Counted from the first letter of the stretch, positions 5,762 through 11,114 are shown. The stretch is DNA of 64,000 bases from Natrinema salinisoli (GCF_020405205.1 NZ_CP084469.1:3782001-3846000); one strand, 5' to 3'. Made by a program: numbers and translations. The notes: generated by a model from the letters alone, not told the origin.

Positions 5762-5845
5762 ACCACGATACGAAATCGGCGATGTTTCGGAAGTATCGGA
5801 AACGGCCCGGCGTCGTTTATTATCATCGAAACCGAACGGTGCGAC

Positions 5846-6874
5846 GTGATCGTCGACGGCCGCGTCCTGCGCGAGGATTTCGTGCCCAGCGAGGTGGTTC
5901 ACCGCCACGACGAGGTGACCCTCCTCTCGGAGACCCTCGAGCCGCTGGTGTACGGCGGACGGCCGGATCCGGCCTTCCTGTTCGGGCCGACGGGCGTCGG
6001 GAAGACCTGCATCGCTCGCTACACGCTCGCCCAGCTGTGCGAACAGGAGCCGACGGTTCGGGTGGCGTACGTCAACTGCTGGCAGGAGTACACGCGGTTT
6101 CGCGTGCTCTACAGCGTCCTCGAGGCGGTCGACCGAGCGGTCGACGTCCACCGGTCGACGCCGAAAGACGAACTGTTCGAACGGCTCTCCCGGATGGACG
6201 ACCAGCCGATCGTCGTCATCTTGGACGAGGTCGACCAGTTGGAGGAGACGGCCGCGCTGTACGACCTCCATCGGCTGCCCCACGTCTCGCCCGTGTTGAT
6301 CGCCAACCGCGAGGTGGAGCTGTTCGCGAGTTTCGACGATCGGGTGCGCTCGCGGCTCCACGCCGGGACTCGCGTCCGGTTCGACCGCTACGGCACCGAC
6401 GAACTCACCGCGATCCTGGCGGAACGGGCGTCGAAGGCGCTCGAGCCGGAGTCGATCGGTAACTCGCAACTGCGAACGATCGCCGACGCCGCGTCGGGAG
6501 ACGCCCGCGTCGGAATCGGCATCCTCCGGTCGGCCGCCCGCCGCGCGGATCGGGAGGGGGCGGAGTCGATCACGGAGGAGACGCTCGAGGCGGCGATCCC
6601 CGACGCGCGGACGGCGATCCGCCGGAAGACCATCGACGGGCTGATCGAACACCAGCGGGTGCTGTACGACGTGATCGACGAGGCCGGCGAGATCGAACCC
6701 GGCGACCTCTACGCGGAGTACGAGCGGCGGGTCGAGGAGCCGAAGACCCACCGGACCCTGCGAAACTACTTGACGAAGATGGTTCACTACGACCTGATCG
6801 AGGCCGTCGGCGAACGCCGGGGACGGACCTACCGGCTCGTCGACGGGCCCGGTGAGGACGACGGCGAGCAATAA
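5846..6874 (+). CDS. Orc1/Cdc6 replication initiator AAA+ ATPase
   Basis: A 342-residue protein. The GTG at 5846 gives MIVDGRVLREDFVPSEVVHR, matching the usual N-terminus of haloarchaeal Orc proteins; the frame upstream is non-coding in character. AAA+ motifs: Walker A GPTGVGKT (about residues 48-55), Walker B VVILDEVDQLEE (about 124-135), sensor-1 LIANRE, and an arginine-rich RVRSRL. The C-terminal about 80 residues form the winged-helix DNA-binding domain (HRTLRNYLTKMVHYDLIEAVGERRGRTYRL). It binds origin repeats and loads MCM. At 342 residues it is somewhat shorter than many paralogues. The preceding 1.37-kb non-coding tract suggests it serves a cognate origin. Confidence 0.92.
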   Translation: MIVDGRVLREDFVPSEVVHRHDEVTLLSETLEPLVYGGRPDPAFLFGPTGVGKTCIARYTLAQLCEQEPTVRVAYVNCWQEYTRFRVLYSVLEAVDRAVDVHRSTPKDELFERLSRMDDQPIVVILDEVDQLEETAALYDLHRLPHVSPVLIANREVELFASFDDRVRSRLHAGTRVRFDRYGTDELTAILAERASKALEPESIGNSQLRTIADAASGDARVGIGILRSAARRADREGAESITEETLEAAIPDARTAIRRKTIDGLIEHQRVLYDVIDEAGEIEPGDLYAEYERRVEEPKTHRTLRNYLTKMVHYDLIEAVGERRGRTYRLVDGPGEDDGEQ

Positions 6875-6948: not shown

Positions 6949-7812
6949 ATGAGCCAATCTCCGGCGCTCCCGGACGAGACTCGCCCCGGTCGGAGCGCGC
7001 TTCGCGTCGCCGACGCCGCGGCGACGATCGACTTCTATCGCGACGTCGTCGGCCTCCGCGTCCGGAATCGAGACGGGACGAGAGTGACACTCGGCACCGG
7101 CGAGCGACCGCTTCTCGTGTTGCTCGTGGATCCGACCGCCGAGCCGCGCGACGAGCGGGAGACCGGACTCTACCACAACGCGTTCAGGGTCCCCTCCCGC
7201 GGGGCGCTGGGGGCCGCACTCGAGCGCGTTCGCGAGGAGTGGACGCTCGACGGCGCTTCCGATCACGGCGTCAGCGAGGCGCTGTACTGTACCGACCCCG
7301 AGGGAAACGGCGTCGAGATCTACCGCGACCGACCCCGAGACGCGTGGCCGCGCACCGACGATGGCTCCGTTCGCGCGGCCGGCGCGCCGCTCGACCTCGA
7401 GGCGCTCGCGGCTGCGGCCGACGACGGGGCGGGCTCGAACGGCTCGCAACTGGCACCCGACGAAACGACGCTCGGTCATATCCACCTCGAGGTGTCCTCG
7501 CTCGACGCGGCCCGATCGTTCTACGCGGAGCGGCTGGGATTCGACGTGTCGATGTCGTTCGCGCCCGGCGTGTGCTTTTTCGCGGCGGGGGGCTACCACC
7601 ACCACATCGGGGTGAACACGTGGAACCAGCGGTCGACGCCGGGCGACGGACTGGGACTGGCGTGGGTCGAATTCGTCGTTCCGGACGCGGACGCGATCGA
7701 TGCGATCCGAGAGCGCTTCGACGACGGTGTCGCGTCGGTCACCGCGATCGACGGCGGCATCGAGATCACGGATCCGGACGGCATCCGGATTCGAATGCGG
7801 CCGGCGGAGTGA
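6949..7812 (+). CDS. VOC superfamily protein with two tandem domains (catechol 2,3-dioxygenase-like)
   Basis: A 287-residue protein with two glyoxalase/bleomycin-resistance/dioxygenase-fold domains, about residues 15-130 (RSALRVADAAATIDFYRDVV ... CTDPEGNGVEIYRDRP) and about 165-285 (GHIHLEVSSLDAARSFYAERLGF ... ITDPDGIRIRMRP). Candidate metal ligands include His in GHIHLEV and the HHHIGVNTW cluster. It resembles CatE-type ring-cleavage dioxygenases of Bacillus and haloarchaea. The substrate cannot be read from sequence. It is a monocistronic-looking gene between orc1/cdc6 and the RadA-like/PolB2 operon. Confidence 0.85.
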   Translation: MSQSPALPDETRPGRSALRVADAAATIDFYRDVVGLRVRNRDGTRVTLGTGERPLLVLLVDPTAEPRDERETGLYHNAFRVPSRGALGAALERVREEWTLDGASDHGVSEALYCTDPEGNGVEIYRDRPRDAWPRTDDGSVRAAGAPLDLEALAAAADDGAGSNGSQLAPDETTLGHIHLEVSSLDAARSFYAERLGFDVSMSFAPGVCFFAAGGYHHHIGVNTWNQRSTPGDGLGLAWVEFVVPDADAIDAIRERFDDGVASVTAIDGGIEITDPDGIRIRMRPAE

Positions 7813-7960
7813 CCGCAGGGACGGTTTCGGAATCGGTATCGGAAACGCGACTTTCCTTCGAAGAAGCGATCTCCGCGCTTATTTCGGCGCTCGAGCGACT
7901 TTCGGAACTGTCGGAACCCGGCGTCCGTCGCTTATGCCCCGCTGGCTCGAGGCCTCGTGT

Positions 7961-8653
7961 ATGCACCAGTTCGAACTCGAGTCCGGGATCACGCTGTTGA
8001 ACGTCCCGTCGCCGCGATCGGGGATCGTCCACCGGCTGGTCTGTGATCGGTTGGCCGACTGCGAGAGGGGAGACGGATCGGCCTACTGGATCGACGCGCG
8101 ATCGGCGGCGTCGACCCACGCACTGTACGACTGTGCCTCGAGCCCGCGCGTACTCGAGGACTTGCGGATCGCGCGAGCGTTCACCGCGTACCAGCACCAC
8201 TCGCTGGTCCGAGCCGTCGCTCGGCGGGCGGACCCGTCGACGAGCCTCCTCGTCGCACCCAACGTCGCGGCTCTCTACCGGGACGACGACCTCGCGGCGT
8301 GGGAGCGCGAGGACCTGTTGGCCGCGAGTCTCGAGACGCTCTCGGAACTGGGACGGGTGCTCGACTGTCCCGTCCTCGTGACGCGCGCCGGCGGTGCCGA
8401 TGACGCTGCGACCGGCTCCGGGCCGGTTTCCGAGTACGCCGACACCGCGATCGACTGCGTTCGGACGCGCGAAGGGCTCCGACTCGAGCCGGCGGGCGAG
8501 GAGGCGGACGCGGCGAGCGCGACGGCGGGGTACTGGCACGGCAGCCAGTGGCAGACGACGATCCCCTACTGGGTCGAGCTCTGTGGCGCCGTCGACGCGG
8601 TCGATCCCGTCGTCGCCGCCCACGATCGGGGCCTGCTCGAGGTGAGCGGCTGA
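7961..8653 (+). CDS. RadA/RecA-fold paralogue lacking Walker A and Walker B
   Basis: A 230-residue protein starting MHQFELESGITLLNVPSPRS. It aligns along its length with the RadA core: GITLLNVPSPRSGIVHRLVCD stands where RadA has the P-loop but has no GKT/S; YWIDARSA matches the IDTE strand; IARAFTAYQHHSLV matches the ARAYN-DHQ segment; LLVAPNVAALYRD occupies the Walker B strand but has APN instead of VD-S; and LDCPVLVTRAGG matches the VVVTNQV strand. It is therefore a RadA relative that should not bind or hydrolyse ATP. The gene overlaps the next by one base (TGATG). In archaea, similar ATPase-dead RecA paralogues accompany PolB2; the role is probably as a repair adaptor. Confidence 0.8.
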   Translation: MHQFELESGITLLNVPSPRSGIVHRLVCDRLADCERGDGSAYWIDARSAASTHALYDCASSPRVLEDLRIARAFTAYQHHSLVRAVARRADPSTSLLVAPNVAALYRDDDLAAWEREDLLAASLETLSELGRVLDCPVLVTRAGGADDAATGSGPVSEYADTAIDCVRTREGLRLEPAGEEADAASATAGYWHGSQWQTTIPYWVELCGAVDAVDPVVAAHDRGLLEVSG

Positions 8654-8934
8654 TGGGGCGAACGAACCCGACCTACCGCGACGCACTCCGACGGATCGAG
8701 TCCGACTGGGAGCCGATGCGACGGGCGCTGCGCCGGGAGTACCAGTCGGATTTCGACCGGCTGTTCGACCGGGCGCGCGAGTTCGCCGACGCGGCGGGGT
8801 ACGCCAATCCGCCGGAGCCGGAACGGGCCCTGTTGCTGTCGCTCCTGCTCGCTCACGAGGTCGAACTGCGGCGGTTGCGGGCGGAGCTCGAGGCCCGGGA
8901 GACCGACCGAAACGAAGTGGACCAGGCGCCATGA
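8653..8934 (+). CDS. Small helical protein of the RadA-like/PolB2 operon
   Basis: A 93-residue protein beginning MGRTNPTYRDALRRIESDWE. It is almost all helix: an N-terminal charged helix pair (PMRRALRREYQSDFDRLFDRAREFADAAGY), a proline break, then a long amphipathic helix (ERALLLSLLLAHEVELRRLRAELEARE) that could form a coiled coil. No zinc or enzyme motif. It overlaps both neighbours (1 base with the RadA-like gene and 4 bases with polB2), so it is surely co-translated with them. A linker or regulatory subunit is a reasonable guess; function unproven. Confidence 0.8.
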   Translation: MGRTNPTYRDALRRIESDWEPMRRALRREYQSDFDRLFDRAREFADAAGYANPPEPERALLLSLLLAHEVELRRLRAELEARETDRNEVDQAP

Positions 8935-11114
8935 GCCCCTATGCGTTCGAGTTCGATGATGGGAGCGTCCGACAGTGGCGACTGACCGAGAGCGGTGCCG
9001 AGTCCACGACCGTGACGGACTACGCGCCGTCGCTGTTCGTCGCCGGGCCGGACGACGCGCTCTCGGAGCTGGACGAGCGCCTCGCGTCCGATCCGAAAGT
9101 CGCCACAATGGAGCGCGAGCAGTGGGCGACGAGCCTCCACGAGGCCCACGCGGGCGAGCGGAGTCAGGTCCTGCGCGCCGACCTCGAGCGCGTCGGCGAG
9201 GTCCGAACGCTGGCCCGGGAAATCCGGGGCGTCCACGAGCGCGAGACGCGGGCTCCGGGAACGTTCCGCCTGTTCGACGTGGACCTCGCGCCGGGGTTTC
9301 GGTACTGTCTCGACCGCGGGCTCGATCCCACGCCGGACCGCGATCTGCGAACGCTTCGGCTCGGCCTCGACGACGCGGCGCTGGCCGACGGCGACGTCTC
9401 GGCGCTGGAGCTGGGTGGTGAGCCCGTCGACGGTGACGAACAGCAGACGCTCCGGATGCTCGACCATCGTCTCGAGCGCCGGAATCCGGACGTCCTCGTC
9501 GTGAGCCACGCCGATCTCGTCCCGCTGCTCGAGCGCCGGGCCGAGTCGCTGGGGCTCGAGGGGTTTCATCTGGGCCGGCAGCCGGGATGGACCCAGCTGG
9601 CGAGCGAGAACACGTACGCGAGCTACGGGCGGGTGGGTCACTCGCCGGCGCGGTATCGAGTTCCCGGGCGGGCGATCATCGACGCGTCGAACAGCTTCCT
9701 CTGGCACCAGTCGGGGCTGGCGGGGATTCGATACATGGTCGAGCGGACCGGCCGCCCGCTGCAGGAGGCCGCGTGGGGGAGCATCGGCACGCTGCTGACC
9801 TCGCGACAGATTCGGCTGGCCCGCCGGGAGCGGGGCGTGCTCGCGCCGTGGAACAAGTGGGAGCCGGAGCGATTCGCGGATGTCGAGACGTTGCACGCGG
9901 CCGATCGGGGCGGGTTCACGTTCGCACCCGAGGTCGGGTTCCACGAGGACGTCCACGAGATCGACTTCGCCTCGCTGTACCCGCGGATCATCTGCGAACA
10001 CGACGTGAGCCCGGAGACGGTCGGCTGTGACTGCAGGGTCAGTAACGACGGTGGCCACCGCGTTCCGGAACTCGAGTACGACAGCTGCGGGGTCGACGCT
10101 TTCCTTCCCGCCGTCCTCGAGCCCCTCATTTCGGACCGGGCCGCGATCAAGCAGCGGCTCGAGGGGGATCTCCCCGACGACGAAGCCGCCCGGCTCCGCG
10201 CCGAGTCGGGCGCGATCAAGTGGGTGCTCGTCTCCTGTTTCGGCTATCAGGGATACCGAAACGCCAAGTTCGGCCGGATCGAGTGCCACGAGGCGATCAA
10301 CGCCTACGCCCGCGAGATCGCGCTGACGGCGAAACGCCGCCTCGAGGACGCGGGCTGGCGGATCGTCCACGGGATCGTCGACAGCCTCTGGGTCACGCCG
10401 CGGGTCGACGACCCGGACCCCCTGTCGGACGTGATCGGCGAGGTTTCCGATACCGTGGGGATTCCCCTCGAGCACGACGGCAGCTACGAGTGGGTCTGTT
10501 TCGTCCCGCTGCGCGATTCGATCGAGGCCGCCGATGGCGGCGACACGCCGGGAAGTGCGGCCCCGTCGGCGGGCGCACTCACGAAGTACTTCGGCAAACG
10601 GACGGGCGGCGAGTACAAGTTCCGCGGGATCGAGCTGCGCCAGCGGAGCACGCCGGCGTTTATCGCGGAGAGCCAGCGCGCGTTCGTCGAGGCGCTGGAC
10701 CGCGAACGCGACCCCGAGGCGGTCTGTGACGTGCTCGGCCGCCGACTGACAGACCTTCGCGAGGGTGCGGTTGAGCCGGCCGATCTCGAGATCACGAAAC
10801 GCGTCTCGAAACGGCTCGCCGACTACAGCCAGCGGACCCATACCACGGCGGCACTCCGGCGATACGAGCGTCGCGGGATCGATCGCCATCCCGGCCAGTC
10901 CGTCGAGTACGTCGTCACCGACGACGACGCTCGCGGTCCCGAGCGCGTCCGGCTCGGCCTCGAGGAGCCACGAACGTACGACGCCGACTACTACGCGACG
11001 CTGCTCGTCCGGGCGTGCGAGAGCGTCGTGTCGCCGCTCGGCTGGGACGAACGCCGAATCCGGCGCTCGCTTCGCGACGGGCGGACGGTTCGGCTCTCGA
11101 CGTTCGTCGAGTGA
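8931..11114 (+). CDS. polB2: Family-B DNA polymerase of the PolB2 type with degenerate active sites
   Basis: A 727-residue protein. The Exo I position (normally FDIE-) reads LGLDD (about 144-148). The Exo II area is shortened (PDVLVVSHADLVPLL, about 186-200) and no Exo III Y-x3-D is visible. The polymerase half keeps motif A (IDFASLYPRII, D345), a motif B-like block (KWVLVSCFGYQGY from K430) and KYFGKRTGGEYKFRGIE, but motif C, usually YGDTDS, reads HGIVDS (480-485), so the first catalytic aspartate is isoleucine. This matches the described archaeal PolB2 family, often regarded as inactivated yet implicated in DNA-damage tolerance in Sulfolobales. It ends the three-gene operon. Confidence 0.9.
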   Translation: MSPYAFEFDDGSVRQWRLTESGAESTTVTDYAPSLFVAGPDDALSELDERLASDPKVATMEREQWATSLHEAHAGERSQVLRADLERVGEVRTLAREIRGVHERETRAPGTFRLFDVDLAPGFRYCLDRGLDPTPDRDLRTLRLGLDDAALADGDVSALELGGEPVDGDEQQTLRMLDHRLERRNPDVLVVSHADLVPLLERRAESLGLEGFHLGRQPGWTQLASENTYASYGRVGHSPARYRVPGRAIIDASNSFLWHQSGLAGIRYMVERTGRPLQEAAWGSIGTLLTSRQIRLARRERGVLAPWNKWEPERFADVETLHAADRGGFTFAPEVGFHEDVHEIDFASLYPRIICEHDVSPETVGCDCRVSNDGGHRVPELEYDSCGVDAFLPAVLEPLISDRAAIKQRLEGDLPDDEAARLRAESGAIKWVLVSCFGYQGYRNAKFGRIECHEAINAYAREIALTAKRRLEDAGWRIVHGIVDSLWVTPRVDDPDPLSDVIGEVSDTVGIPLEHDGSYEWVCFVPLRDSIEAADGGDTPGSAAPSAGALTKYFGKRTGGEYKFRGIELRQRSTPAFIAESQRAFVEALDRERDPEAVCDVLGRRLTDLREGAVEPADLEITKRVSKRLADYSQRTHTTAALRRYERRGIDRHPGQSVEYVVTDDDARGPERVRLGLEEPRTYDADYYATLLVRACESVVSPLGWDERRIRRSLRDGRTVRLSTFVE

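Follow-up and report, generated by a model that had tools for sequence, protein, structure and literature searches.

An operon of PolB2, an inactivated RadA and the family arCOG07300, with an arORC2 gene nearby, was described in archaea, haloarchaea included, by Makarova in 2014, who suggested a link to initiation (PMC4104785). Timinskas in 2025 named the two partners iRadA and PPB2, modelled a heteropentameric mutasome in which PPB2 is a trimer, reported that the MGRT arm and a D(K/R) motif are important, and noted orc1/cdc6 neighbours, which are enriched in archaea but not universal (PMC11791011). In Sulfolobus, Orc1-2, an Orc paralogue, binds the promoter of its own gene and regulates damage-inducible genes, that of the polymerase Dpo2 among them (PMC9738581). 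This work concerns a 64,000-nucleotide stretch of Natrinema salinisoli DNA (GCF_020405205.1 NZ_CP084469.1:3782001-3846000; the window, in what follows), where three overlapping genes at 7961 to 11114 form the published PolB2 mutasome operon and not a new scaffold, every defining protein feature that could be tested having been found. The operon is already known; what looks new is a promoter box that ties it to an upstream orc gene and to the integrases of mobile elements.

Compared with the published mutasome, the proteins have no distinguishing feature. The gene order, a RadA without ATPase motifs, a helical PPB2 of about 90 residues with an MGRT arm, a substituted motif C, a lost exonuclease, the D(K/R) motif and an orc1/cdc6 neighbour (here at 5846-6874) are all as reported, whereas neither paper was found to describe a box common to orc and integrases (PMC11791011, PMC4104785). 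With the Sulfolobus Orc1-2 regulon and its DDRE element ANTTTC (PMC9738581) the locus has in common that an AAA+ protein of the Orc1/Cdc6 family is connected with PolB2 expression and with the promoter of its own gene, and that one element stands at both the regulator gene and the polB2 operon; it differs in that it is haloarchaeal, its element is a tandem of TCGGAA placed ahead of a TATA element, that element also precedes mobile-element integrases, and Orc is the predicted binder. The bacterial mutasomes, that is, the SOS-controlled E. coli Pol V (UmuD'2C-RecA) and ImuA-ImuB-DnaE2, similarly join a RecA-family partner, a small or inactive partner and an error-prone polymerase, but the polymerase here is of the B family and the operon has no Y-family (ImuB) or C-family (DnaE2) subunit. 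The features concerned are:

7961..8653, + strand: iRadA, RadA/Rad51 paralogue without Walker A and B, 230 amino acids; ATG at 7961, TGA at 8651-8653
8653..8934, + strand: PPB2 (arCOG07300), 93-amino-acid helical protein starting MGRTNPTYR; ATG at 8653, stop at 8932-8934
8931..11114, + strand: PolB2, family-B polymerase with lost exonuclease motifs and motif C HGIVDS; ATG at 8931, stop at 11112-11114
7902..7916, + strand: operon promoter element TCGGAACTGTCGGAA; TATA-like CTTA at 7931-7934, probable leaderless start at 7961 (+59)
5846..6874, + strand: Orc1/Cdc6-family AAA+ protein (Pfam Cdc6_lid and AAA), 342 amino acids, probable GTG start at 5846; candidate regulator
5787..5801, + strand: promoter element of the orc-like gene, TCGGAAGTATCGGAA, from a genome pattern search; TATA-like TTTA at 5816-5819, start codon at +59

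The k-mers enriched in the regions upstream of 68 iRadA genes are TTCCGAAA/TTTCGGAA and a GCTTAT element. The box can be written as TCGGAA-N2-3-TCGGAA; in iRadA promoters it stands about 29 nt before a TATA-like sequence and mostly 57-62 nt before the start codon, and in orc promoters it is conserved at about 56-63 nt before the start, 24 of those from relatives having it at -56 to -62. This spacing of box, TATA element and start suggests that the transcripts are probably leaderless and, together with a conserved VIVD start, points to the GTG at 5846 as the beginning of orc. Exact copies of the box number eight in the 4.7 Mb of the window's genome, where the reversed pattern has none, and of about 44 boxes with a single mismatch only one is followed by a TATA element at the correct distance. 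In 938 kb of loci (80 places), a wider pattern matched 59 times, at 26 iRadA promoters, 24 orc promoters and 9 other places, with no match of the reversed control. Since it is rare, is held at a fixed spacing and recurs before non-homologous genes, the box has strong support from sequence as a functional promoter element. It was missed, together with the co-oriented Orc/Cdc6-like gene upstream, in an earlier note on this DNA, both lying outside the coordinates covered there. The ANTTTC motif was also tried as operator and rejected: it is enriched (15 ACTTTC against 2.9 expected), but the TTTCGGAA element is stronger and the better explanation, and the window's iRadA promoter, which reads ACTTTCGGAA, has TCGGAA-N2-3-TCGGAA as its conserved element and not a consensus ANTTTC.

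The box reaches well beyond this operon. When a TATA element is required as well, 76 genomes from the same family have about 75 sites and no match of the reversed pattern; among 70 distinct sites read, 33 lie before orc and 12 before iRadA, and in nearly all the start codon falls at +58 to +61, while 22 of the 23 further sites checked have a tyrosine integrase downstream, whose identity was confirmed in sampled members by Pfam Phage_integrase and a PHROG integrase family. In the class as a whole, sampled by 193 genomes, matches of the wider pattern number about 120 in 68 genomes of several families (reversed, 8), and about half of the 31 sites read from that set precede orc, a few iRadA, the rest being unassigned. 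Where polB2 lies apart from its partners it has either a box of its own (locus L209) or, at the corresponding position, the degenerate form TGAAAYCCGGAA. In the window's own genome, six promoters combine box and TATA element: those of orc and iRadA, two integrase-type leaders and two open reading frames (ORFs) of 111 amino acids on plasmids. The latter are paralogous and start 59 nt after the box (C3:95119 and C2:136136, L095 and L202, on two smaller contigs); the C3 copy has no Pfam or PHROG match.

The integrase transcripts have a GC-rich hairpin leader in common, in which seven base pairs covary, both partners differing in one sequence or more, and for which Rfam gave no match. A conserved peptide of about 25 residues (M..xTRxHGKSTGYCN...EVGR) lies just before the integrase or a small ORF and overlaps the next ORF; leader and peptide could possibly serve attenuation or translational control. 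Mobile-element integrase operons with box, leader and peptide were seen at L146, L151, L163, L164, L182 and 17 others, and in the window's own genome at C1:780441 and C1:2288268.

We put at roughly 0.8 the probability that this operon is a haloarchaeal PolB2 mutasome with a promoter box common to orc and mobile-element integrases, of which the Orc-like protein, or a factor associated with it, is most likely the damage-responsive binder. The Orc-like protein has intact Walker A (GPTGVGKT) and Walker B (ILDEVD) motifs and matches AAA+ and the Cdc6 lid; the Cdc6_C model is unmatched, though the C-terminus looks winged-helix-like by eye. Its gene is co-oriented upstream of iRadA in 39/70 loci. This adjacency, the box before its own gene, and the CGGAAAC core that the box has in common with one haloarchaeal element resembling the origin recognition box (ORB), TAACAGCGGAAACAGTGGGG, suggest that the protein binds the box, and the nature of the mutasome, together with the Sulfolobus precedent, suggests that the box would respond to DNA damage. 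Several observations pull the other way. Genomes that lack polB2 still have orc and its box, and orc is therefore not dedicated to the mutasome; the box is unlike the Sulfolobus ANTTTC element; and the form searched is unmatched in 36/68 iRadA promoters, of other lineages, where it has either diverged or is absent. In the open-access PMC literature we found no expression, binding or activity data for the haloarchaeal members; a portion of a Halobacterium ultraviolet study reports induction of radA1 and others and mentions neither polB2 nor orc there, and a passage of a Haloferax volcanii review calls polB2 deletable, the phenotype not being given in that passage. On a haloarchaeal damage operator, the string TCGGAA included, the portions of that literature retrieved held nothing relevant.

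The alternative that survives best accepts the box but has it read by a different transcription factor, the Orc-like gene being only one of its targets and the trigger perhaps replication stress or another signal. We regard it as a real possibility, if not the one to be expected: the binding of Orc to the box is a prediction, and the plasmid ORFs of unknown function also bear the box, whereas orc is the commonest gene behind it (33/70) and keeps it without polB2, as would be expected of an autoregulated regulator, and Sulfolobus Orc1-2 sets a precedent (PMC9738581).

The gene order iRadA-PPB2-PolB2, adjacent and on one strand, is present in the window, and the coordinates and overlaps given for the three genes in the earlier note are exact: the iRadA/PPB2 junction reads TGATG, with an overlap of one base, and the PPB2/PolB2 junction ATGA, with four. 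Among 80 haloarchaeal polB2 loci, the iRadA/PPB2 overlap is 1 base long at 21 and 14 bases long at another 21, and that of PPB2/PolB2 is 4 bases long at 23; because these lengths recur, the overlaps are not due to chance. Presence was scored in 292 haloarchaeal genomes at least 90% complete, polB2 being called by an E-value threshold and the presence lists transferred by hand: all three genes occur in 170, none in 107, polB2 without both partners in 7, and both partners without a full polB2 in 4. Both partners are thus present in 170/177 polB2-positive genomes against 4/115 without a full polB2 (Fisher P 4e-66, a value that overstates independence, the species being related), so that polB2 standing without its partners, which if routine would by the earlier note have spoken against a joint system, is rare.

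Directly upstream of polB2, iRadA and PPB2 are found in 66/80 loci. The exceptions often belong to a second, plasmid-borne polB2 lineage, with iRadA-PPB2 a few kb off. In this lineage, often on plasmids (L056, L059, L063, L064, L069, L071, L072, L077, L078), the partners are split off or not in the available flanks, and the inserts that separate them from polB2 are a TnpB-like ORF (L078) and, in several, a DUF7342 regulator. A polB2 match occurs on 114 plasmid records, and one 599-kb plasmid of Haladaptatus halobius (NZ_CP085339.1) holds five polB2 places. At some Haladaptatus loci (L034, L035, L040) the ORF immediately preceding polB2 is PPB2-like but lacks the MGRT arm, and iRadA could not be recognised in the available flanks. 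The window's own genome contains broken polB2 remnants with internal stops, on the plasmid-sized contig C3 (106116-106619; L082, L083), where an Orc/Cdc6-like ORF adjoins (C3:104724-105953), and on the chromosome (C1:2390042-2390182; L085).

The first gene does have a RadA fold without Walker A and B, as the earlier note had it. Pfam Rad51 is matched by the single sequence at E 8e-5, barely past the cut-off; a profile of 16 sequences finds solved RadA/Rad51 chains in the PDB at E 1.4e-13; and the AlphaFold model (predicted local distance difference test, pLDDT, 82) resembles RadA/Rad51 structures at Foldseek E 6e-11. The position of Walker A reads VPSPRSGIVHR and that of Walker B VAPNVAALYRDDD. 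The protein is a RadA/Rad51 core without the N-terminal domain, starting about 15 residues before the Walker A position. A PCNA motif of the form QxxLxxFF was not seen by eye at the C-terminus of iRadA (...GLLEVSG) or of PolB2 (...RLSTFVE); only a fraction of PolB2 mutasome members have a PCNA motif there.

PPB2, the helical protein starting MGRTNPTYR, has the size of about 90 residues, the MGRT N-terminus and the Arg3 and Arg9 of its family; an MGRT or VGRT start occurs in 61/71 relatives scored, and Arg9 in all 61. Its model has an unstructured arm at residues 1-7, followed by helices of which the last is long. A Foldseek search of that model against the PDB gave no match (best E 4.3) and did not reproduce the published sigma-factor-like resemblance. 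A PHROG of unknown function is matched at E 7e-24; a viral origin of PPB2 and iRadA was considered and rejected, no PPB2 appearing in the viral-contig scan or the phage-record search.

PolB2 matches NCBIfam NF004418 with 831 bits (cut-off 692) and carries the D(K/R) motif as DRGG. Compared with a KOD-type polymerase, motif A (DFASLYP) is intact, motif B (KWVLVSCFGYQG) is kept without the canonical NSxYG, the residues of Exo I and Exo II are absent, and motif C reads HGIVDS in place of Y-x-DTD, with the first Asp replaced by Ile and the second kept. The earlier note called this polymerase decayed; it was right about the lost exonuclease, HGIVDS and the persistence of motifs A and B, but HGIVDS itself is nearly invariant in haloarchaea. 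In all 81 aligned haloarchaeal PolB2s the Asp of motif A, the second Asp of motif C, the core of motif B, the DRGG loop and a Trp at the second position after VDS are unchanged, and H, G and I are each present in 80/81. Since these residues are invariant or nearly so, the gene is not decaying; HGIVDS is a maintained group signature, and the word decayed is misleading.

The S. islandicus enzyme Dpo2, with IID at the same motif, has no exonuclease but is a robust polymerase and can extend primers beyond lesions (PMC8764526); damage-induced mutagenesis in that species is due to it alone (PMC7390963). The two polymerases agree in the first motif-C Asp changed to Ile, the second kept and the missing exonuclease; they differ in that Dpo2 is crenarchaeal, with activity and damage-induced mutagenesis shown, whereas those of the haloarchaeal protein are predicted. 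A search of the open-access PMC literature found no activity assay of any haloarchaeal PolB2. By analogy, the haloarchaeal protein is most likely an exonuclease-less translesion 'extender' that would work through its retained carboxylates. A stand-alone RNase H-like (exonuclease-type) ORF near PPB2 was tried as a trans proofreader and rejected, being present at only 7/80 loci and in varying places. An RNase_H_2-family ORF does lie directly 3' of PPB2 in some plasmid-type loci (L063:2809-3519, L078:520-1230 and five others), and it is conceivable that at these it proofreads in trans for a PolB2 without an exonuclease of its own.

The earlier note had proposed a dead PolB2 scaffold. On such a reading the polymerase would be without activity and, with iRadA and PPB2, would only bind stalled forks or primer ends so as to recruit other enzymes. 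The lost first Asp of motif C, the missing exonuclease motifs and an iRadA clearly without ATPase motifs agree with it, but the invariance of the Asp in motif A, of the remaining Asp in motif C and of the core of motif B (81/81) fits kept catalysis, and Dpo2 is active with the same kind of substitution (PMC8764526), so that a non-catalytic scaffold seems unlikely and that part of the proposal probably wrong. Its wider idea, that RadA, helical protein and PolB2 act jointly in damage tolerance like a mutasome, stands and had already been published, for archaea and bacteria generally and not for haloarchaea only (PMC4104785, PMC11791011). Least probable of all is the view that the operon belongs with the Orc/Cdc6-like gene in replication initiation or fork restart, and that the TCGGAA repeats serve as origin recognition boxes and not as operators of promoters, for although the neighbour, the CGGAAAC common to box and ORB-like element and the initiation link suggested in 2014 (PMC4104785) favour it, the repeats are direct and not inverted, keep a fixed distance to TATA-like element and start codon, precede unrelated genes (integrases, split polB2, plasmid ORF), and show no G-string in the elements displayed.

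Two further features lie between orc and the operon:

6949..7812, + strand: glyoxalase-family gene (Pfam Glyoxalase), outside the system
7825..7844, + strand: candidate second, looser half-site pair TTTCGGAATCGGTATCGGAA, further upstream of the operon than the box; seen by sequence

On the preferred reading, that of a damage-tolerance mutasome under a common box, published models would have iRadA dock on PolB2 as one RadA subunit does on the next in a filament, and one MGRT arm of the PPB2 trimer reach the cleft between PolB2, iRadA and DNA, while translational coupling would hold the subunits together. After DNA damage, the Orc-like AAA+ protein or a co-acting factor would, as the most likely mechanism, bind the box and thereby switch on both orc itself and the mutasome, and the integrase operons would have tapped the same damage signal. 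We give about even odds to the broader proposal of a haloarchaeal SOS-like regulon, in which the tandem TCGGAA box would place the PolB2 mutasome and the gene of an Orc1/Cdc6-family protein under the control of that protein, and integrases that have a leader peptide and a structured leader RNA would sit on the same switch, so that damage would set off mutagenic bypass and element movement together.

The operon is a further, haloarchaeal instance, backed by co-occurrence on a large scale, of a machine that was modelled in 2025 and has been tested biochemically in Sulfolobus. The promoter box matters more. It joins an Orc-family gene, a mutagenic polymerase operon and the integrases of mobile elements, and hints at an SOS-like damage regulon in archaea; if this is true, a short, rare and sharply positioned box would give archaea a counterpart of the mutagenesis and prophage induction that LexA controls.

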